From Pseudomonas mendocina (GTDB lineage: Bacteria; Pseudomonadota; Gammaproteobacteria; Pseudomonadales; Pseudomonadaceae): a DNA stretch of 64,000 nt. A program made the translations under genes and the position numbers. Of the stretch, positions 19,182 to 36,057 are shown piece by piece (position 1 is the stretch's first letter; every line of letters begins with the position of its first letter). Location of the stretch: the NCBI RefSeq assembly GCF_003008615.1, contig NZ_CP027657.1:4092001-4156000 (forward strand), read 5' to 3'. Under the pieces are notes generated by a model. That model was not told the origin of the DNA. It searched no databases and saw nothing but the letters and a program-made list of their open reading frames with translations.

Positions 19182-19224
19182 CGGAGCCAAGCGCCGTCAT
19201 GGCAACCCTGGCAGGCCCATGACC

Positions 19225-19293
19225 GTCACTCCCGCGAAGGCGGGAGTCCAGGTGCCACCGCTATCTCTGGGTTCCCGCCTTCGCGGGAATAAC
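19225..19293. repeat. Paired palindrome of the CCCGCGAAGGCGGGA family
   Basis: Two hairpins in inverse orientation: CTCCCGCGAAGGCGGGAG and TTCCCGCCTTCGCGGGAA, joined by 25 bases. The same unit occurs at 25441-25508 and 30852-30920; all three are intergenic. Confidence 0.75.
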
Positions 19294-25256: not shown

Positions 25257-25415
25257 ATGGATCTTATCCGCATCTTGATCGCTATCATCCTGCCGCCGCT
25301 GGGTGTGTTCCTGCAGGTGGGTTTTGGCGGTGCGTTCTGGCTCAACATCCTGCTGACGCTGCTGGGTTACATCCCAGGCATCGTCCATGCGGTCTATATC
25401 ATCGCCAAGCGCTAG
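25257..25415 (+). CDS. YqaE/Pmp3 family small membrane protein
   Basis: A 52-residue proteolipid with two helices: LIRILIAIILPPLGVFLQVG and FWLNILLTLLGYIPGIVHAV, ending YIIAKR. The LPPLGV and GYIPGIVHA elements are diagnostic of Pmp3. These proteins are induced by salt, cold or membrane stress and are thought to limit membrane depolarisation. AAGAAGGAG lies just before the ATG at 25257. Confidence 0.92.
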   Translation: MDLIRILIAIILPPLGVFLQVGFGGAFWLNILLTLLGYIPGIVHAVYIIAKR

Positions 25416-25440
25416 GGAAACTCTGAAAAAGCCCCATACC

Positions 25441-25508
25441 GTCACTCCCGCGAAGGCGGGAGTCCAGGTACCGCGGGAGTCTGGATTCCCGCCTGCGCGG
25501 GAATGACG
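25441..25508. repeat. Paired palindrome of the CCCGCGAAGGCGGGA family
   Basis: Hairpins CTCCCGCGAAGGCGGGAG and TTCCCGCCTGCGCGGGAA joined by a 25-base linker; follows the Pmp3-like gene and may stabilise or end its transcript. Confidence 0.75.
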
Positions 25509-26806: not shown

Positions 26807-27436
26807 CTATTGCGGCGCGACCAGAAAGGGGGCGACGCTGCCGAAGGGATAACTGCCCATGCCGACCTGGATGCGGGGGCCGTTGGCCGGCACGCTGCTG
26901 CCCACCACCATGACGTTGTCGATCAGCACCTGTTTGCCAGGGTTGCGGTTGTCTGCCGCGACGATCAGGTAGTAGGTGCCGTCGCGGTCGACCTGCCCAG
27001 TCAGATCCTGATCGATGACACCGACGATGCCACGCACCTGGCCAAAGCCCTGACCCACCACCTTCGACTCGTCGTCCAGCAGAATCAGATAGGGTGCCAG
27101 CACGTACTTGCTGAAGCCCAGGCAGGCGTTCACGCACCACGAGTTCACCTTGATCTGGAAGGGCTTGCCGGCTTTGAGGTCAACCGAAAATACCCGGTAG
27201 TTCGATGGCGTGCCGTTGATCAGCAGGCGAGGTTCCTCGGCGGTGATCTTCCACTGCTCGGGGCGCCAGCCGGGCGCAATCTGCATGGGCTGGGCGGAGG
27301 TATTGCGAAGGGCCTCCTCCGGTGTTTTCGCCAGCGGAGTCGAGGCGTTGACGACTTGTTCCTGATACAGGTGCTGTGGGTTGGCACTGCAGGCTACGAG
27401 GCCGAGGCACAGGCTCAATAGAATGATATTTCGCAT
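26807..27436 (-). CDS. Predicted lipoprotein, 209 aa
   Basis: Begins MRNIILLSLCLGLVACSANP: a signal peptide with lipobox LVAC, so the mature protein should be anchored by a lipidated Cys; Ser at +2 favours the outer membrane. The rest is beta-rich (TYYLIVAADNRNPGKQVLID). Some resemblance to MalM-type periplasmic proteins, but not firm. AAGGAAG precedes the ATG. No function can be assigned. Confidence 0.68.
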   Translation of the reverse strand: MRNIILLSLCLGLVACSANPQHLYQEQVVNASTPLAKTPEEALRNTSAQPMQIAPGWRPEQWKITAEEPRLLINGTPSNYRVFSVDLKAGKPFQIKVNSWCVNACLGFSKYVLAPYLILLDDESKVVGQGFGQVRGIVGVIDQDLTGQVDRDGTYYLIVAADNRNPGKQVLIDNVMVVGSSVPANGPRIQVGMGSYPFGSVAPFLVAPQ

Positions 27437-27600
27437 CTTTTCTTCCTTGAATGATCAGGGCCGTTTCGGGCGTTGCGCCGCTGTGCGCGCGAGCATAAGT
27501 CGAAAGGGCTCGGGTGAAAATCAATCCGTGTCCTTTTCCTTTGGCGTTAAGTCCCTCGGGTAACATGGCGCTGCAACGAACTCAGACCCAGAAGGGCCTT

Positions 27601-27936
27601 ATGGCATCGTCGAAACGAAAATACGCCGGCATCGAGCGCGAGCTTATCCGCACCCTGACCATTGCCTGCGAAACGGCAAAAAGCGAAATCGTCGGCTTCC
27701 AGTGGCTGACCCATGATGTCGACTACGAGCAGTTTCCGCAGAGCCTGGTGGTGACCTGGATGTTCGATACCGAGGCCAACAAGGCACGGGCACTCGCCAG
27801 CCCGGACAAGGAGAGAATGCTGGCCCTGACGTTGGCCGCCTTTGATGAAGTGGGCATCAGCGTTTCCAGTGTCGCCGCGCATGTCGCGTTTTCGGTCGAG
27901 CAGCCGGCAAGGGGCAAACGTGGCCAAGGACATTGA
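27601..27936 (+). CDS. Conserved hypothetical protein, 111 aa
   Basis: A soluble protein starting MASSKRKYAGIERELIRTLT with AGAAGGG five bases upstream; an ATG at 27565 in the same frame lacks a ribosome site. No Cys cluster or membrane segment; motif FQWLTHDVDYEQFPQSLVVT. Its last 17 bases overlap the DUF1289 gene, so the two are translationally linked. Function unknown. Confidence 0.65.
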   Translation: MASSKRKYAGIERELIRTLTIACETAKSEIVGFQWLTHDVDYEQFPQSLVVTWMFDTEANKARALASPDKERMLALTLAAFDEVGISVSSVAAHVAFSVEQPARGKRGQGH

Positions 27937-28108
27937 GAACCCCTGCGTGTCGCTGTGTCAGCTCAACAGCGAGCTGTGCGTCAGTTGCGGGCGCACGCGC
28001 GAGGAAATCCGCAAATGGCGGGGCATGAAACGCCCCGAGAAGATGGCCTGCGTGCAGAAGGCTGCGGTGCGGGTGAAGGCGATTGCCAAGAAGAAAGGCA
28101 AAGGCTAG
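27920..28108 (+). CDS. DUF1289 family small Cys-rich protein
   Basis: A 62-residue protein with GTG start: MAKDIENPCVSLCQLNSELC then VSCGRTREEIRKW. Four Cys in the pattern Cx3Cx6Cx2C suggest an Fe-S or zinc site; the GRTREEI block identifies DUF1289. The basic tail ends KKKGKG. It starts inside the preceding gene (17-base overlap), so coupled translation is likely. Confidence 0.85.
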   Translation: MAKDIENPCVSLCQLNSELCVSCGRTREEIRKWRGMKRPEKMACVQKAAVRVKAIAKKKGKG

Positions 28109-28116
28109 CGGTCAAT

Positions 28117-28168
28117 GATCGTTCCCACGCTCCGCGTAGGAATGCAGCCCGTGACGCACCGCGTCACG
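28117..28168. repeat. GTTCCCACGC-type intergenic repeat
   Basis: GTTCCCACGC-TCC-GCGTAGGAAT followed by the perfect hairpin CGTGACGC-ACC-GCGTCACG (28150-28168). This motif is common between genes in pseudomonads. Confidence 0.6.
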
Positions 28169-28271
28169 AGTACCAACGTGCACAGCTCTGAGCGGTATGT
28201 AGCGACGGGACTTATTTCTTCTTCTTGCAGCAGGGCCGACTGTTTCCCCCTTCGTCTTTCACTCGTCGATC

Positions 28272-28493
28272 ATGTTCGTCGAGAACCTTAATGAGGGGCG
28301 TAGCCAGCGCGTTCTGCAGGCGCAGGAGCTGCGTGAGCTGCTGGACGCCAGGCAGTCAGTGCCCTGTGTTTATCGGGCCACTGCCTATGGCTTCAAAGCG
28401 TATCGTTCGGGCGTTCTACGGATACCTAGCGTCGATATCCTGCGCGAGCTGGCGGTCGTTCCCGCGCTGCCTGCTACCGACCGCGGCGGCTGA
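28272..28493 (+). CDS. Possible small protein, 73 aa
   Basis: A frame from MFVENLNEGRSQRVLQAQEL to PALPATDRGG with Pseudomonas-like codon use but no visible ribosome site, convergent with the acetyltransferase. It could be a real small gene or a decayed fragment; I do not recognise it. Confidence 0.3.
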   Translation: MFVENLNEGRSQRVLQAQELRELLDARQSVPCVYRATAYGFKAYRSGVLRIPSVDILRELAVVPALPATDRGG

Positions 28494-28517
28494 TGCAGAT
28501 GACGGTGCCAAACTCTG

Positions 28518-29210
28518 CTAGTGAACGGTTGGCGTGAGACGCTCGCGTACGAGTTGTTGAGCCTCGTAGGCCAACTGATCGAGGTAATGGTCACGCTGTG
28601 TTTCTGCCTCACTCATTGCCTGCTTACCGTGCTGCTTTAGCAGGTAGGCGTGAATCTGACGCACTTCGGTGGACTGAAACACCGGAGCCAGATCCTGCAC
28701 CGCCACCATACCGTCGGAGCGCTGGTCACGGGTATTCATCAGCACCTGCGAGCCATGCGCGGCCAGCACCTGAAACCCCATCGTTTCGAAGTAGGGCACC
28801 TTGCTTGCCACGCACGTCAGTTCGACATGCGGCCTGCGCTCGATGAGTTGCCGCAGCATGGCCCTTGCGACACCAAGCTGGCGGTGGCTGGCCTGTACGG
28901 CCATATAGCTCAGGGTGCAGGCTTCGGGGTCATCCTGGCTGGGTAGATAAAGAGTGAAACCCAGCACCTGGGACGGGTCTTCATCATCCAGAGCCAGCAG
29001 CAACTGCGCGGGGCTATCCGCTTCACCATTCATGGCCTGAAGATGTAGATGCACTTCGTAGCCGATCACGTACTGGTACAACTGATAGAGCGGGTTGCTG
29101 GGCGTCAGCGGCACCGGGCTGATATCGCTGAAGTAATCCACCACCATTTGCAGCACCTGGCTTTTCAGGGATTCGGGTGGTGGGGTGTTCAGGTGGGTGA
29201 GGGTGAACAT
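28518..29210 (-). CDS. GNAT family acetyltransferase
   Basis: A 230-residue protein with a GNAT core at residues about 65-155: LGFTLYLPSQDDPEACTLSY, then the acetyl-CoA loop HRQLGVARAMLRQL, and PYFETMGFQVL near the end. The C-terminal 60 residues are an extra helical region (RDHYLDQLAYEAQQLVRERL). Substrate unknown. Monocistronic. Confidence 0.82.
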   Translation of the reverse strand: MFTLTHLNTPPPESLKSQVLQMVVDYFSDISPVPLTPSNPLYQLYQYVIGYEVHLHLQAMNGEADSPAQLLLALDDEDPSQVLGFTLYLPSQDDPEACTLSYMAVQASHRQLGVARAMLRQLIERRPHVELTCVASKVPYFETMGFQVLAAHGSQVLMNTRDQRSDGMVAVQDLAPVFQSTEVRQIHAYLLKQHGKQAMSEAETQRDHYLDQLAYEAQQLVRERLTPTVH

Positions 29211-29362
29211 GGCAAGGCAGGTCTCATGAATCGGCGGGCGTCATTGTAACGCTTTGCAGGGTGGAGTCCGGGCTGCTTGCTACGCACGGCTACCTGTCTG
29301 TTGATAAGGGCATGAAAGAAGGAAAAGGGAAATCTATTGGAACGCTGGTTATGGATAAGTGA

Positions 29363-29785
29363 ATGAATCGGTTGATCAGCGGGCTTCTTTTTCTGGTGCT
29401 GTCGGCGCTGGTTGGTTGTGCGCAAGCGGAACTGCGCTGCGAGGACTTTCTCGCGAAGCTCAGTGATAAACCCGGGTTTGTGGAGCTTCTGGAGTGCACT
29501 CAAGATATCGATGCTCAGGGAAAGCCTTTCGTCGCCCGCTATCGCGTAAAGGGCTCGGATGCACGTGAGGCCGAACAGTACATGAGTCGTCACTTCGGTC
29601 AGCCAGCGCTTCGATACATCTGTTGTGGTTGGGATTCAACGCCTTACTTTTATCGTGATGAAACGACGCAGTTGGGGTACATGCTCGGCATGGGATCCGA
29701 GGAGACGCCTGTAAACAAACGTGATTCCTGGCCAGAGATAACGTTTTTCTACATCAATGTTTCTCTGGCGACTGAAGAGCCTTGA
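29363..29785 (+). CDS. DUF4952-like predicted lipoprotein
   Basis: A 140-residue protein with signal peptide and lipobox (LVLSALVGCAQA). The mature part has C-rich features (ELRCEDFL, ELLECTQDI, RYICCGWDS) and YFYRDETTQLGYMLGMGSEE, which I associate with DUF4952. Function unknown. Slightly lower G+C than core genes. Confidence 0.65.
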   Translation: MNRLISGLLFLVLSALVGCAQAELRCEDFLAKLSDKPGFVELLECTQDIDAQGKPFVARYRVKGSDAREAEQYMSRHFGQPALRYICCGWDSTPYFYRDETTQLGYMLGMGSEETPVNKRDSWPEITFFYINVSLATEEP

Positions 29786-29854
29786 TCGTTTCGCCGAATG
29801 AATCGTTACGTAGGGGGAGAGGTACTTTTTCATCCGCTGCGGCTGGTGTGCGGT

Positions 29855-30370
29855 CTATTTGCTACCGTCCTGCTGGCGCTGGGCGGTGTCTTTCATCTTG
29901 GCGGAGAGGATCGCCGCTTCGATTGCCTTCACCGTACCCTTGGCCGGAGGCATTTCGAAGACGGCACTTTCGGCGAGGGTGTAGAGGCGCTCGCTGCTAT
30001 TCAGGGTTAGTTCGAGAAATGCTACGTGCTCCGACCAGGAGCGATAGCGGCGCACCATGAAGATGCTGTGTCTGGCCTTGATCGAGCTGATCTTCGCCAG
30101 AGGAATCCGGCGGTTGTTGGTCTCGCCGCACAGCACCAGTTCGTCCGCGTGGATGAACGCCGGTTGGCTTTTGTCGACCCTGAGCCATTCCACGATGAAG
30201 CGGCACGCCATTACCAATATGACGCAGGGTAGGGCAGAAAGAAGGGCGAATTCATCGTTTGCCACTCCCTTCAGCGTGATGCCTGTCATGACCAGCAGGA
30301 AGAGGAGGGTAATGATTCTGTAGAACTGGACGTTGCCGAACTCCGGTTCGGACAGTAAGCGAACTTCCAT
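29855..30370 (-). CDS. Membrane protein with PH-like domain
   Basis: A 171-residue protein with two N-terminal helices (IITLLFLLVMTGITLKGV and LSALPCVILVMACRFIVEWL) followed by a beta-rich soluble domain (ADELVLCGETNNRRIPLAKI, SSIKARHSIFMVRRY) with the strand pattern of bacterial PH-like domains. AGGA precedes the ATG. A 26-codon frame ends 20 bases upstream and may be the tail of a decayed gene. Confidence 0.6.
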   Translation of the reverse strand: MEVRLLSEPEFGNVQFYRIITLLFLLVMTGITLKGVANDEFALLSALPCVILVMACRFIVEWLRVDKSQPAFIHADELVLCGETNNRRIPLAKISSIKARHSIFMVRRYRSWSEHVAFLELTLNSSERLYTLAESAVFEMPPAKGTVKAIEAAILSAKMKDTAQRQQDGSK

Positions 30371-30549
30371 GCATCATTTTCCTGGAGGGCTATTGCTGCG
30401 GAGCTGGAACAGCGTATTGCATCTGTTCGCGGTGCTGCTGGATCTGCTCCGCAAAATGTAGGCAGGGCATTCGATGGAGGAAAACGCTCTGCGTTTGTTC
30501 TGGCGACTAGCTACGGAGTGAACCCGCCGCTGATTTGTGGTTCTTGACA
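30371..30549. other. Gene-poor spacer at the edge of the accessory patch
   Basis: No convincing gene. A minus-strand frame of 26 codons (30390-30470; MPCLHFAEQIQQHREQMQYA...) has plausible protein-like composition but no ribosome site, so it could be a C-terminal remnant. Confidence 0.3.
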
Positions 30550-30750
30550 CCGGTTTCGCCCTTACGGCGGGTCACTTCTGGCAAACGCCTAGATGGCCGG
30601 CCCCGCCAAAATTAACCAAGAGGTCTTTGCCCCTGGCATCCGGCCCGACTTCGTCGGGTTGATTCGCTGCGCTCACCCTGCGGGCCAGCCTTCGGTTTTT
30701 ACTGCGCTGCGCTTCGTTTCACAACGATTCCACTCGGCCTCCTGACGGGG
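30550..30750. repeat. Long intergenic repeat, inverted copy
   Basis: Runs from CCGGTTTCGCCCTTACGGCG to CACTCGGCCTCCTGACGGGG and is the inverse complement, with indels, of the copies at 30989-31236 and 32222-32556. Confidence 0.65.
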
Positions 30751-30851
30751 CGTTTGGCGTCGTCTGTGAGATTGGCGTTCCAACATTAAAGAGCCCGAGT
30801 ATCGCGGCAACGCCACGATGCTTTCGGGATGTTCTGAAAATGTCATTTATC

Positions 30852-30920
30852 GTCACTCCCGCGAAGGCGGGAGCCCAGGACGCTCGCAGGTTCTGGGTTC
30901 CCGCCTGCGCGGGAATGACG
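30852..30920. repeat. Paired palindrome of the CCCGCGAAGGCGGGA family
   Basis: Third copy of the two-hairpin unit (CTCCCGCGAAGGCGGGAG ... TTCCCGCCTGCGCGGGAA), inside the accessory patch. Confidence 0.75.
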
Positions 30921-30988
30921 ACTTTTTCAGGGGTTCCTTGGCTCTGCTTTTTCTTTTGATTTACCTGCACCGCCAGATCAGACGACGA

Positions 30989-31236
30989 GATCCCCGAATC
31001 CCGTCAGGAGGCCGAGTGGAGGTGCTGTGGAGAGTGGCGTTTGGCATGGATGGCCCTTCGCGACGACCCTCGTAACAGCGCCAGAGCGAGGGGAGTGGAG
31101 CGTAGCGAAACCCGGATGCCGGATGCGCTTTCTCTTTGGTTACTTTCTGCGCGAGCGAAGCGAGTCAAGTGACTCGCCGTAAGGGCGAAACCAGTAGAAG
31201 AGGGCGACGTAGCAAATAAATCTGTCCCATTTTTTG
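30989..31236. repeat. Long intergenic repeat, direct copy 1
   Basis: Begins GATCCCCGAATCCCGTCAGG, contains GTTTGGCATGGATGGCCCTT, GCGCTTTCTCTTTGGTTACT and CTCGCCGTAAGGGCGAAACC, and ends with AAATAAATCTGTCCCATTTT. A matching copy lies at 32222-32556. Apparent frames inside it are by-products of the repeat. Confidence 0.75.
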
Positions 31237-31293
31237 ATTGCTCGGACTGGCAGATGCGCACGCTACGGCAGAGTTATATCTACAGACCCGTAA

Positions 31294-32070
31294 TTACAGG
31301 CTTACAAATGATTGCTTGATTCCATTCAGCTCGGCTGCCTGCGCACTCGTGAAGCCCAGGTTGTGGTGCAACCTCGTTGGCACTAGCACCTCTGCCAGAT
31401 CGGTATCGGTACTCATGTTGCCGATCTCGGCAAATCCTTCTCGGTGGACGGCTACTTTGCTGGCATCTGCCTGGACGCCGGACTTCTGGTGAGCAGCGAG
31501 TCTGAGGGCGAACTTGAGGAGCGGATCCTGGCTGAACGTGATTTTCACGATTATGCCCTCAGCATCCGTGGCGTTCGCGTTGCCGAATGCGGAAACTTTT
31601 CGCAGAGAAGACGACATCCAGTACCGATAATGGTCGGTATTGATATGGTTGAACGTGCCCTGGAATGGATTAGGGAGATTCTTGACCGCGTCCCACTCCC
31701 CTTGGCTCATCTTGCGGTAGTAGACGCTAGGCTGAATCACGTCCTGCGAGATGAATATGCGAGTTTTGAAGGCGACGTGATCGAAGTCCTGAAGCTTGTG
31801 GGGTGATGAGAGGATTTTGGTAAGCGCCGTATCGACGCTCTTGCGAATCCAGGGTTCGCCGAGGGCCTCCCAGATGACGTCCTTTTTCAGCTTGAGCGGA
31901 TCCTGAATTCCTGGGAACTGGTTGAAGTAGCCTCTCTTGACGAACTCGTGCGGAGCCCAATACTTTGCGTGCGGAGGGAGTTCCGCGAAGGTGTCTGGAG
32001 CACACTTCGACAAGTGCCGGTAAAAAAAGCTCAGGGCGATTTCGATCCCACACTTCTTGCATCCAGGCAT
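31294..32070 (-). CDS. Hypothetical protein with N-terminal zinc ribbon and possible ADP-ribosyltransferase-like domain
   Basis: A 258-residue protein not assignable to a family. The start MPGCKKCGIEI, with H19 and C23, could bind zinc. Residues about 110-235 show R119 (YYRKM), a Ser-rich element (S153-S155 in YWMSSSLRKVSAFGNA) and E227 (AEVLVP), the order of R-S-E elements in many bacterial ADP-ribosyltransferases. GGAGGA just before the ATG supports the start. It sits between two direct copies of a long repeat. The transferase idea is inference. Confidence 0.55.
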   Translation of the reverse strand: MPGCKKCGIEIALSFFYRHLSKCAPDTFAELPPHAKYWAPHEFVKRGYFNQFPGIQDPLKLKKDVIWEALGEPWIRKSVDTALTKILSSPHKLQDFDHVAFKTRIFISQDVIQPSVYYRKMSQGEWDAVKNLPNPFQGTFNHINTDHYRYWMSSSLRKVSAFGNANATDAEGIIVKITFSQDPLLKFALRLAAHQKSGVQADASKVAVHREGFAEIGNMSTDTDLAEVLVPTRLHHNLGFTSAQAAELNGIKQSFVSL

Positions 32071-32221
32071 AACATCCTCCGGCGAAGGTCATTCAACGAA
32101 CCACAACGAAGATATAGCAGATCCTCTTTTGTGATGGCTATCCGGGCCGCTTTCTTGCTGCTGGAGTGAGCCCTCTGCTGTTGTTTGTTGCTCTGCCTTC
32201 CACAAAACGCTCATGCACCGC

Positions 32222-32556
32222 GATCCCCGAATCCCGTCAGGAGGCCGAGTGGAGGTGCTGTGGAGAGGGGCGTTTGGCATGGATGCCAAACGAGGAGTGA
32301 TGGGCCAGGGATGGCCCTTCGCGACGACCCTCGGAGCAGTGCCGGAGCGAGGGGAGTTGAGCGCAGCGAAACCCGGATGCCGGGCGCGCTTTCTCTTTGG
32401 TTACTTTCTCTTTCGCGCGAGCAAAGAGAAACGGAGCGCAGCGGAGTAACAGCCGCAGGCTGGCCCGAAGGGCGAGCGAAGCGAGTCAAGTGACTCGCCG
32501 TAAGGGCGAAACCGGTAAGTGTGAACGACAGAGAAAATAAATCTGTCCCCTTTTTC
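32222..32556. repeat. Long intergenic repeat, direct copy 2
   Basis: Same order of segments as 30989-31236, from GATCCCCGAATCCCGTCAGG to AAATAAATCTGTCCCCTTTT, but longer because of extra inserted segments (AAGAGAAACGGAGCGCAGCG region). The two direct copies bracket the zinc-ribbon gene. Confidence 0.75.
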
Positions 32557-32599
32557 ACGGCGGTCTGTCCCCATCTCCTTTCTCGGGTAGCTCTTGCGA

Positions 32600-34273
32600 T
32601 TATGATTTTTCTTTTAATTTCACGGTTATATCTTGAAAGTGGAATTCTTCATTTGTTGGCGAGTGAGTAAATTCATTTTGAATATTATTTATGAATAACG
32701 GGATGTTCGTTAGTCTATTTTTCTTTTCTAGCTTCTTCGATGCAAACAATATTTCATGCCATCCTAGCCACACTGCGCGCTCATCTTGGTTGGTAATGTC
32801 TCCGAAACGAGCTGTATATCTAGCTATGACATATATTATGGGTCGTGAGTTTGAGTTGGAATGTGAGTTTACATTGATTCCTAACGAACCTTTTATTTCA
32901 GTGCTGGTTCTGGAACCTACCCAGGTGTTTACAGAATCAACCCATTTGTTTGCTTGTAAAATGTTCGTACTTCTGCTTTTTCGCTGAGAGGTTGAGCGGC
33001 CGTATATGTCGTGCCATTTTAATTGGATAAGGGCAATGTCGCCGCTATGCCTGTCTATAATGACTGCATCTATGTCAGTTAGTGTTGAGTTATCTTTTCT
33101 TTTTAGCTTGAATCCTGTGGCGGGGATTGAGTAATGGGACTTGGGGAATGCTTTTTCCAAGTCGGATCTAAATTGATCCTCTCTACGGTCTACAGCTCTA
33201 TCCCAATCAGCCGTGTATGTGGCTCGCAAATGCCTAAATAATGCGTAATAAGGATTTGAGAGAGCGCCAAAACAGGGCAAGAGGAAGAAGTCCTTACCGT
33301 ACTCAATGTAAAAAGGACAGGGTGTTTCAAAGTCTCTTTCCCATTCGGTAATGCTTTGAGATGTGACCGTCAATGCTTCAATGGTTGTTTTTACTAGTTC
33401 AGGCTTTAACCCTGCTTCTATCCATACGTCTGATATATCTTCTTTTCTAACATACAGTGTGTTTACGTTTTCTAACGAGATATGTGGGTGTTTAGTTTTC
33501 AGGGTTTTTGCAAAGTCAATATGGCTCAGGATTCTTCCCAGCGCTTGTTCGCAAATAAGCTTCCACTCTTTAAACGATCTGTCTCCAATGATTGAGTCGT
33601 CAGGAAGAGCTTCGCGCTCTAGGAAGTTATGTCCGTAAATAGCGGCTTTTTTTCTATATAAATTCACTAGCTCAAAGTCGTTGTCATATTTGATAAACCA
33701 TTCGTTAGCGCAGTCCACGTAGCTGTACATTTTTCGAGTTATTTTTTTGTTCTCAATTTTTAACAATTCGCCGCTTTTAGATTTTGGCGCTTCGCTCGCT
33801 AGTGCTAACTTTTGAAGCGTTGTTTGGGCGCGTTCTACCAAAGAGGCTTTTGTATCTATTGATATTTCTACTACAGACTTGTCTTCGCTGACATGCGTCT
33901 TCGATAGACCTGTGGCTTCCAGCGAGGCGAGTCTTAATAAGTGGGATAGTTTTCCTAGGCTTGTGAGGTAGGAGTAAGTGTGCGCGCTTAGCCTTGCGTC
34001 ACTTGGCATCCAAGGGATTGGACCTGGGATATCCTGTATTTTAGGTAGCAGTAATTTGAATGCGGCTGCAGCGCCTCTTGCCACATAGAAGTAGCCTTCT
34101 TGTGTGGCAGTTGACTGTTTTGTCTCTCTGCTCAGGCCAATTCCTACAGTTTTTTCTAATTCGCGAGTTATATAGACAACTGCCTCTTGCTCGCGGCCTT
34201 CCCATTGAGAGGCAGCTATATTTTGCAGTTCTTCTATCTTTTTAATTAGCAGTCTTTTTGCTTCGCTTTCCAT
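32600..34273 (-). CDS. AT-rich accessory gene: predicted PD-(D/E)XK-type nuclease, 557 aa
   Basis: A large soluble protein with no signal peptide. The C-terminal third holds a motif like the restriction-endonuclease fold: D402 (TDIDAVIIDRHSG), then Q417-x-K419 (IALIQLKWHD), preceded by E365 in a helix (RREDQFRSDLEKAF). The long helical N-terminal region has no recognised domain. Base composition is visibly AT-rich beside the GC-rich neighbours, a sign of recent transfer. It is alone on the minus strand and ends with a hairpin-T-tract region downstream of repeats. A role in defence is plausible but inferred. Confidence 0.65.
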   Translation of the reverse strand: MESEAKRLLIKKIEELQNIAASQWEGREQEAVVYITRELEKTVGIGLSRETKQSTATQEGYFYVARGAAAAFKLLLPKIQDIPGPIPWMPSDARLSAHTYSYLTSLGKLSHLLRLASLEATGLSKTHVSEDKSVVEISIDTKASLVERAQTTLQKLALASEAPKSKSGELLKIENKKITRKMYSYVDCANEWFIKYDNDFELVNLYRKKAAIYGHNFLEREALPDDSIIGDRSFKEWKLICEQALGRILSHIDFAKTLKTKHPHISLENVNTLYVRKEDISDVWIEAGLKPELVKTTIEALTVTSQSITEWERDFETPCPFYIEYGKDFFLLPCFGALSNPYYALFRHLRATYTADWDRAVDRREDQFRSDLEKAFPKSHYSIPATGFKLKRKDNSTLTDIDAVIIDRHSGDIALIQLKWHDIYGRSTSQRKSRSTNILQANKWVDSVNTWVGSRTSTEIKGSLGINVNSHSNSNSRPIIYVIARYTARFGDITNQDERAVWLGWHEILFASKKLEKKNRLTNIPLFINNIQNEFTHSPTNEEFHFQDITVKLKEKS

Positions 34274-34307
34274 GTTCGTGGTGTTCCAGTTCCTGAGAAA
34301 TAAAAAA

Positions 34308-34330
34308 GGCCGCTTAAAGCGGCCTTTTTT
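34308..34330. terminator. Bidirectional intrinsic terminator between nrdB and the accessory nuclease gene
   Basis: AAAAAA-GGCCGCTT-A-AAGCGGCC-TTTTTT: a perfect 8-bp stem with an A-tract on one side and a T-tract on the other. It ends nrdB transcription on the minus strand and insulates the gene at 32600-34273. Confidence 0.9.
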
Positions 34331-34350
34331 ATTTATAAAAATCTACTGTG

Positions 34351-35601
34351 TCAATCCCAGCTCAACGCCCCACCAGTCTGATACTCGATCACTCGGGTCT
34401 CGAAGAAGTTCTTCTCCTTCTTCAGATCCATGATCTCACTCATCCACGGGAAGGGGTTGGTAGTACCCGGGTACTCTTCCTTCAGGCCGATCTGGGTCAG
34501 GCGGCGGTTGGCGATGAATTTGAGGTAGTCCTCCATCATCGCGGCGTTCATGCCCAGTACGCCGCGCGGCATGGTGTCACGCGCGTATTCGATCTCCAGC
34601 TGGGTGCCCTGCAGGATCATCTGGGTCGCTTCGTCCTTCATCTGGGCGTCCCACAGGTGCGGGTTTTCGATCTTGATCTGGTTGATCACGTCGATGCCGA
34701 AGTTCAGGTGCATGGACTCGTCACGCAGGATGTACTGGAACTGCTCGGCGGTGCCGGTCATCTTGTTGCGGCGGCCCATGGAGAGGATCTGGGTGAAGCC
34801 GCAGTAGAAGAAGATGCCTTCCAGTACGCAGTAGTAAGCGATCAGGTTACGCAGGAACTGGCGGTCGGTTTCCGGGGTGCCGGTCTGGAACTTGGGATCG
34901 GAGATCGAGCGGGTGTACTTGAGGCCCCAGGAGGCTTTTTTCGCGACGCTCGGGATCTCGTGGTACATGTTGAAGATCTCGCCTTCATCCATGCCCAGCG
35001 ATTCGATGCAGTACTGGTAGGCGTGGGTGTGAATCGCTTCCTCGAAGGCCTGGCGCAGGATGTACTGGCGGCACTCGGGGTTGGTGATCAGGCGGTACAC
35101 GGCCAGTACCAGGTTGTTGGCAACCAGGCTGTCGGCGGTGGAGAAGAAGCCGAGGTTGCGCATGACGATGCGGCGCTCGTCTTCGCTGAGACCGTCTGTG
35201 GATTTCCACAGCGCGATGTCGGCGTTCATGTTCACTTCCTGCGGCATCCAGTGGTTGGCGCAACCATCCAGATACTTCTGCCAGGCCCAGTCGTACTTGA
35301 AGGGTACGAGCTGGTTGAGGTCGGCGCGGGCGTTGATCATCTGCTTGTCGCCGACCTGTACGCGCGCGGAGGCGCCTTCGAGGTCGTCCAGGCCTTCCTG
35401 AATGTCGAGGTCGTTCAGGGCTTTCTTGGCGCGAGCGACGGCGTCGGAGTCGTTGGCGTCAACGGCGCGTGCCTGCTCGACCGAGCCGGCAGCTTCGCTG
35501 TCGAGCTTGTCGAAGTTGGTGCCGGCGCTTTGTGCGGTGGCTTTGCTTGCGGCGGCTGCTTCTGCGCCGTCTTCCTTGTCGAATTCATCCCAGCTCAGCA
35601 T
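34351..35601 (-). CDS. nrdB: Class Ia ribonucleotide reductase beta subunit NrdB
   Basis: A 416-residue beta subunit. It carries the di-iron ligand motifs [15 protein letters not shown] and [16 protein letters not shown], and the family C-terminus that docks to the alpha subunit (TGGALSWD). With NrdA it makes deoxyribonucleoside diphosphates aerobically. A start at 35601 ([12 protein letters not shown]) matches the family; the acidic-Ala-rich N-terminal stretch is typical of Pseudomonas NrdB. It lies downstream of nrdA, separated by 456 bases with repeats, and ends at a strong terminator. Confidence 0.96.
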
Positions 35602-36057
35602 GGCTTGGCTCCTGCGTGAGGGCCGGTGAATAAACCGGCCTGTATGGATATACAGATAATTTGAATTATGTTCCGTTGCGTGATGCGCGCAAGGGTAAAC
35701 GGGTACCACTGGTCAGCAGGCGATGGATTGCTGGCTGACCGTTGCCACTCGACCCGGAGGAGGAGGGGCGGGAATTGGTGGGGAGGGGTGGCCCTGTAGG
35801 AGCGGATTTATCCGCGAATTTCGCGGCTGAAGCCGCTCCTACGGAAGAGCTTTGCCCTCTCCCTAACCCTCTCCCGCAAGCGGGAGAGGGGATTAACCGT
35901 GTGTTGCTTCAGCTTTTCATTCAGCTATCGAGCGTGTAGCTGAGCGAGTAGTCGCAAGGCACCTGCTGGAGTGGAGCCCCTGAGCGTACGCATGTACGTG
36001 ATGGGGGCCGCTCTAGCAGGTAACGCCGCGAATGCCGCTCAGATCCACGCGCCAGCC
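35602..36057. other. nrdA-nrdB spacer with two hairpin repeats
   Basis: No gene. Contains the REP palindrome at 35796-35842 and a perfect 10-bp hairpin CCCTCTCCCG-CAAG-CGGGAGAGGG at 35867-35890. Both may process or stabilise an nrdA-nrdB transcript. The nrdB leader just upstream of its start contains an AT-rich patch (35640-35670) which could be a promoter. Confidence 0.6.
35796..35842. repeat. GTAGGAGCGG...CCGCTCCTAC REP pair
   Basis: GTAGGAGCGGATTTATCCGC followed by TCGCGGCTGAAGCCGCTCCT forms a two-sided palindrome; a second member lies at 55355-55417. A common Pseudomonas REP family, different from the RAYT-associated one. Confidence 0.8.

Follow-up and report, generated by a model that had tools for sequence, protein, structure and literature searches.

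Defence hotspots as such are already known in Pseudomonas. The core defence hotspots (cDHS) of P. aeruginosa, cDHS1 and cDHS2, have median sizes of 26 and 6 kb and hold variable, defence-rich content between conserved core genes; in the part of the source drawn on here, tRNA or tmRNA genes lie in their flank, mobile genes are present in most cases, and no single mobile element explains the content (PMC10250203). Tn7-like transposons with defence cargo likewise occupy a fixed spot behind a conserved gene (PMC8649781 and PMC10293859, in the parts covered), and the terms 'nrd' and 'ribonucleotide' are absent from the main texts of these two papers. The miniature inverted-repeat transposable elements (MITEs) and intergenic repeats R0, R2 and R200 of P. 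fluorescens are structured, some with inverted ends, and lie between gene 3' ends; R200, at 320 bp, was compared by description only, and the covered text of that paper has no tie to defence cargo (PMC2718517). Here we describe a slot directly behind the ribonucleotide reductase gene nrdB, identified in a 64,000-nucleotide window (positions 4,092,001-4,156,000 of a 5.77-Mb Pseudomonas mendocina genome). The nrdB slot differs from the larger cDHS in that it lies behind a protein-coding gene, mostly contains just one or two genes and is closed off by a structured repeat in part of the loci. One relative has a Tn7-like element at this spot; the other nrdB loci fetched yielded no Tns genes. In what follows, L plus a number denotes a fetched locus and G plus a number a genome compared, the source genome being G000.

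The region behind nrdB was compared in 80 loci of other genomes, one per species, extending at most 10 kb downstream. Four loci with fewer than 600 bases downstream (L050, L081, L083 and L093) were excluded, which left 76 usable loci. The first kilobase past the nrdB 3' region was called AT-rich when its guanine-cytosine (GC) content was at least 0.10 lower than that of nrdB. This was the case in 40 of the 76 loci versus 17 of 694 control kilobases from the same loci. The first AT-rich open reading frame (ORF) was co-directional with nrdB in 33/39 loci, with one more AT-rich locus having no such ORF, and 31 of these 33 ORFs began no more than 180 bases away from the stop codon of nrdB. In the window, GC is 0.41-0.42 over 32501-34000, which covers most of a 557-amino-acid (aa) gene, and 0.60 in nrdB, in agreement with an earlier sequence-only reading that had called this gene AT-rich and placed it beside nrdB.

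The nrdB-nrdA DNA of the window is 95.7% identical to a locus of Pseudomonas sp. ZH-FAD and ~95% identical to loci of P. khazarica, P. guguanensis, P. chengduensis and P. mendocina, and the DNA of close relatives differs starting at the first base past the nrdB stop codon. In the plasmid records compared with the locus, the match was restricted to the nrdB-nrdA part. Most first cargo genes were unshared at the DNA level in an all-against-all locus comparison. The 557-aa gene was present in 0 of 56 other genomes searched and the second window gene, of 258 aa, gave a partial 52% match in one of the 56, so that the picture set out in the sequence-only reading as contrary to it, the same two genes with ordinary GC in nearly all relatives, was absent. 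That reading had also expected junctions at which cargo differs between genomes while the repeats bounding it stay in place: cargo does vary between most species and nrdB is constant, but the repeat boundary was recovered in part only, with a repeat match within 4 kb behind nrdB in 19 of the 80 loci. Its observation of repeat copies and accessory cargo behind nrdB is confirmed. Taken together, these results identify the position directly behind nrdB as a hotspot address in many Pseudomonas species, with a conserved flanking core gene and variable content across the 80 loci, as in defence hotspots. What is observed requires that the DNA to the right of the nrdB stop codon has been replaced repeatedly, at most loci without a visible recombinase in the cargo.

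The cargo was compared with PADLOC defence models at E<=1e-10, using 28 of the 62 ORFs listed at nrdB loci and the two window genes. Of these 30 proteins, 18 matched (6/10 in each of three batches), a fraction that gives no rate for all loci because the picks came mostly from AT-rich loci and were partly second cargo genes (L090, L092, L096). None of 10 control genes from the other side of nrdAB matched. The first batch matched AbiU, a SIR2 protein of ThsA type, PDC-S60, the UG5 defence reverse transcriptase, AbiZ and NsnA; matches in the second included a Pycsar cyclase, HEC-04, PDC-M36A and PDC-S59, and those in the third PDC-S08, a dGTPase, AbiU and a type IV enzyme. Some cargo, for example AAA ATPases, matches many PADLOC models, so that the defence system is not fixed by the match. 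Furthermore, L085 has a CBASS-like trio (SAVED-HNH, SMODS, ThiF) behind nrdB, and among a further ten nrdB-site ORFs examined, several were ordinary enzymes or transporters. The cargo is no random mix, much of it matching anti-phage defence models, and the slot content is enriched in defence genes, the proteins being mostly from AT-rich loci. Pfam found no integrase or transposase domain over cut-off in 30 nrdB-site proteins; a single weak TniB match, in L049, was below cut-off. ORFs in L025, L030 and L034 that had been taken, by look, for REP-associated transposases were dropped as such, Pfam giving no match for L025 and L034. Nucleotide-pool enzymes (5'-nucleotidase type PDC-S08, dGTPase) occur as cargo behind nrdB in L039 and L065 and elsewhere in L196; that they adjoin ribonucleotide reductase genes may be coincidence.

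Behind nrdB in the window, a terminator hairpin is followed by the 557-aa gene, then by repeat copy 3, the 258-aa gene and repeat copy 2, and last by a degraded copy in inverted orientation (Table 1). Neither gene matched a Pfam model over cut-off. The 557-aa protein is predicted to fold like an Upx-type PD-(D/E)XK nuclease and the 258-aa protein like a zinc-ribbon ADP-ribosyltransferase, and the two low-GC genes are predicted to be anti-phage effectors. The slot offers a fixed, easily scanned address, in that the first gene behind Pseudomonas nrdB is often a defence candidate, and the two unnamed genes of the window are therefore worth testing.

Table 1. Features of the nrdB slot and its right flank, in window coordinates
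Feature	Position	Strand	Basis
nrdB, fixed left anchor of the slot	34351..35709	-	Pfam Ribonuc_red_sm 1.6e-92; DNA of close relatives differs past the stop codon
Terminator-like hairpin and T run between nrdB and cargo	34308..34330	-	Sequence itself
Cargo 1, 557-aa gene, predicted PD-(D/E)XK nuclease with fold related to part of Upx	32600..34273	-	ORF list, fold prediction
Repeat copy 3, the longest, on the side of cargo 1 away from nrdB	32215..32560	+	Repeat finder, blastn, covariance model
Two GGA-loop hairpins within repeat copy 3	32266..32331	+	Rfam TwoAYGGAY 40.8 bits, below cut-off 43
Cargo 2, 258-aa gene, zinc-ribbon-like N-terminus and predicted ADP-ribosyltransferase fold	31294..32070	-	ORF list, fold prediction
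Repeat copy 2, with internal deletion, beyond cargo 2 as seen from nrdB	30986..31240	+	Repeat finder, blastn, covariance model
Degraded inverted repeat copy	30617..30749	-	Covariance model E 2.4e-5; blastn pieces
GNAT gene, right flank; homologues downstream of nrdB in several relatives	28518..29210	-	Pfam Acetyltransf_7; locus comparison

The sequence-only reading had counted three repeat copies, two direct and one inverted, which the repeat finder and a covariance model bear out, the inverted copy being degraded. It had further placed the cargo between repeats; this holds for the 258-aa gene and fails for the 557-aa gene, which has a repeat, copy 3, on one side and nrdB on the other. In the repeat finder, 30986-31234 and 32219-32555 are tied together by three families of direct repeats, of 67 nt at 97%, 104 nt at 91% and 84 nt at 87% identity. 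The covariance model, built from 33 aligned copies, scored 195 bits for 32233-32399 on the plus strand, a copy that is itself among the training rows, 118 bits for 31000-31138 (plus) and 30 bits for 30617-30749 (minus). The alignment of the 33 copies backs a 41-pair structure in which 98.6% of cells pair and both partners vary in 18/41 pairs. The observed measures were reached by none of 500 shuffles, and slid structures dropped to 33-51% paired, a comparison tilted in favour of the structure, since it had been derived from the same sequences as tested. On the plus strand of the window, 66 G-T cells were found versus 3 A-C, indicating that the folded molecule is likely read on this strand, opposite to the cargo genes. 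Compared with shuffles, the fold of the window copy lies lower by 3.7 standard deviations on the plus strand and by 2.8 on the minus strand. The repeat is a covarying structured element.

The pattern CANGGANG, which we take to be a CsrA-type motif, occurs once in window copy 2 and twice in copy 3, on the plus strand only, and is absent from the inverted copy. At the gathering score, no Rfam family matched window positions 27000-36000. The nearest family is TwoAYGGAY RNA (RF01731), a proposed CsrA-binding RNA as far as the consulted part of its source goes, which has GGA-loop hairpins as the repeat does (PMC4333381). The window copy scores ~2 bits under the curated cut-off, and its motif sits inside a longer repeat beside defence genes; copies in two relatives, L163 (49.2 bits) and L167 (45.1 bits), pass, these being 2 of 8 further loci searched.

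Of the 19 loci with a repeat match behind nrdB, 15 belong to the AT-rich set of 40 and 4 to the other 36, and same-orientation repeats alternate with cargo in four loci, namely the window, L090, L163 and L184. Elsewhere in the source genome, blastn found a single other long match, at 3789139 and 71% identical, and the covariance model gave 3 matches in total. Across the genus, blastn with the 346-base copy gave some match in 215/249 genomes, many to a short piece only. The covariance model was run on 14 genomes, chosen for few contigs and in most cases already known to give repeat matches, and found the repeat in 12, with 1-12 matches in eleven and at least 150 in G134. In 8 of the 11 low-copy genomes (G000, G012, G014, G185, G206, G215, G223 and G269) a copy lies within 10 kb behind nrdB, compared with a chance expectation of ~0.14 copies over the eleven (67 copies, 4.9 Mb); in the other three, G085, G263 and G265, no copy was found within this distance.

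Repeat sites away from nrdB were drawn from the strongest blastn matches, with two candidates per genome scored and nrdB sites excluded. An AT-rich ORF of at least 200 aa lay within 1.5 kb of 13 of these 31 sites; for random positions in the same 16-kb windows (n = 1979) the share was 1.2%. Several of these ORFs have the repeat on one side and the 3' end of a neighbouring gene on the other; by look, we take these neighbours to be an NYN-domain gene, a glutamine amidotransferase gene, cobF and purE. Among ten proteins from off-nrdB repeat sites, PADLOC matched five at E<=1e-10 and three only at E>1e-10, with two giving no match. The matches were to HEC-06 or Orf5, an ATPase-Toprim type, PDC-S46, AriAB and PDC-S08, the last of which is found both behind nrdB (L039) and at another repeat site (L196). 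We also noted a cobalamin riboswitch at L194 2225-2420, in the fetched region of a repeat-bordered AAA gene at the cobF-side slot.

Our best guess, held with a probability of about 0.5, is a defence-gene slot whose content is renewed by homologous recombination, nrdB acting as left arm and the repeat as right arm. The repeat would be mobile and built as an inverted pair, and its dispersed copies would give incoming DNA the homology needed for such an exchange. If a circle of cargo and repeat entered a resident repeat by a single crossover, the locus would gain one unit of unchanged orientation; this would account for the same-orientation units in the four loci named above. In some relatives, a Tn7-like transposon likely carries larger islands to the same spot. 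Support comes from the sharing pattern of a 5' element ahead of the cargo, which consists of a short GGATGTT-type block and a GCCCCGC/GCGGGGC terminator and was found in 16 loci by strict pattern and in ~23 by eye. This element with its own terminator is scattered: L063 has it in common with distant species, and the near relatives L061 and L065 (nrdB 94-99% identical) are without it. It lies within 45 bases of nrdB in 10 of the 13 genomes whose listed match includes the pre-terminator block (query start <=34).

Several results weigh against this reading. In 25 of the 40 AT-rich nrdB loci no repeat was detectable within 4 kb, so that the repeat is common at the slot and not necessary, and 18 of the 31 off-nrdB repeat sites had no AT-rich ORF by the criterion above. 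The two window genes matched no PADLOC model. First cargo is common to a few species pairs, for example L049-L184, L060-L082 and L072-L080, and the near-identical pair L026/L172, one such pair being compared, carries the same cargo save for a 1.24-kb insertion. Sliding identity along nrdB gave no crossover or mosaic signal, in a test that is weak because nrdB is so conserved. No excised circle, empty site or donor was seen. In G134 (loci L203-L222) the repeat has been amplified alone, and transposition genes of Tn7 type are present at the nrdB locus of one relative, as detailed below. The sequence-only reading had proposed that recombination between repeats loads and swaps the cargo; the variation of cargo between most species stands, the mechanism is put in question by the repeat-free loci, the missing mosaic and the Tn7-like transposon, and its interpretation is thus partly supported. 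As a side observation, the 1.24-kb insertion in the L026/L172 cargo has an 86% relative behind nrdB of P. aeruginosa PA7 (L032).

The amplification in G134 and the repeat-free AT-rich loci would also fit a harmless landing pad with a bystander repeat, in which the terminator separates settlers from the operon, cargo is swapped by ordinary recombination in the core genes at the flanks, and the repeat, a MITE-like element unconnected with this exchange, favours gene 3' ends. Among the at least 150 matches in G134, those listed are largely inverted pairs. Alignment of 20 pairs delimited an element of less than 1 kb with shared ends by eye, the left end being missing in L212; in this genome the repeat thus has the MITE trait of a short amplified element with inverted ends. 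Several G134 copies adjoin terminator-like hairpins, and the amplified set could reveal the insertion rule of the element. A bias of intergenic repeats towards the Tail-repeat-Tail arrangement has moreover been published for P. fluorescens (PMC2718517, in the part covered). A mere bystander is at odds with the excess of AT-rich genes beside off-nrdB repeats, some of which match defence models, and with the alternation of same-orientation repeats and cargo in four loci. We consider this account possible, if somewhat unlikely.

Of the remaining 3 of the 13 genomes whose 5' element match includes the pre-terminator block, G085 and G090 have the element after a Tn7-like TniQ gene. These two bear on another origin, namely that the nrdB end is an attachment site for Tn7-like transposons and that the small cassettes are what is left of transposon cargo once the genes for transposition had been lost. 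In G085, whose nrdB protein is 99% identical (L223/L224), ~28.9 kb lie between the nrdB stop codon and the 5' element, with genes for TnsA, an rve/Mu-type TnsB, a TnsC-type/TniB protein and TniQ at the far end, after which the 5' element follows. The rest of this island presumably includes restriction-like genes, by look. In G090, a 46% TniQ homologue ends ~300 bp ahead of the 5' element, with the repeat further on; in G001 the 5' element is near a contig end, off nrdB. Candidate transposon ends agree at 15/26 positions, with 6 of 20000 shuffles as good, the 26 bases having been picked by eye. This scenario nevertheless appears unlikely for the slot at large. TniQ of the G085 type was strong in only 2/249 genomes, G085 and G090, it had no match in the source genome, and the window locus carries neither Tns genes nor TniQ. 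Also, tblastn with four G085 proteins gave no match in the other fetched nrdB loci within their 10 kb or less of downstream sequence. The supposed left end is also similar to the 3' region of nrdB in L097 and G062, which makes the ends and a possible CTGAC duplication uncertain, and the duplication is not relied on. It is conceivable that the G085 TniQ targets nrdB.

The order of gene then repeat recalls the array of a chromosomal integron, and the source genome does have an integron integrase at 456729-457670 (C1), scoring 498 bits against a curated cut-off of 265, with eight ~75-bp repeats beside it (L253 10227-14060). Delivery of the cassettes by this integrase, with attC-like repeats at nrdB, is however disfavoured as highly improbable: the ~75-bp repeats had no blastn match in window positions 29001-36000, and the nrdB repeat is several times longer and elsewhere forms inverted pairs, often without cargo. 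A scan for the attC pattern found none, even in the real integron, and is thus uninformative. Returning to reloading by homologous recombination, a bolder version of it, which we put forward tentatively and regard as rather doubtful, would see in the slot an integrase-free counterpart of the integron, where a mobile GGA-hairpin RNA repeat acts as a portable right-hand recombination arm by which individual defence genes are stacked and swapped behind nrdB as well as behind several further core genes, maybe tying the cassettes to CsrA/Rsm control.

In the open-licence literature of PubMed Central, outside which preprints and most subscription papers lie, no description of an nrdB hotspot was found. 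As far as this search goes, three things are new: the nrdB address, the small size of the slot at one or two genes, and its link to a structured, covarying repeat common to several slots. The repeat provides a sequence handle for finding further slots, and the locus raises the question of whether compact defence genes need their own integrase in order to spread.

Two further sequence features were recorded near the repeats. The motif GGGGACAGA at repeat tails was counted 14 times in 304 kb (the 4 kb behind nrdB) versus 3 times in 859 kb upstream; these counts come from few loci and were not used. A second repeat family (CGTCACTCCCGCGAAGGCGGGAG...) occurs three times in the window, at 30826-30930, 25415-25468 and 19199-19252, with one occurrence lying within the array.

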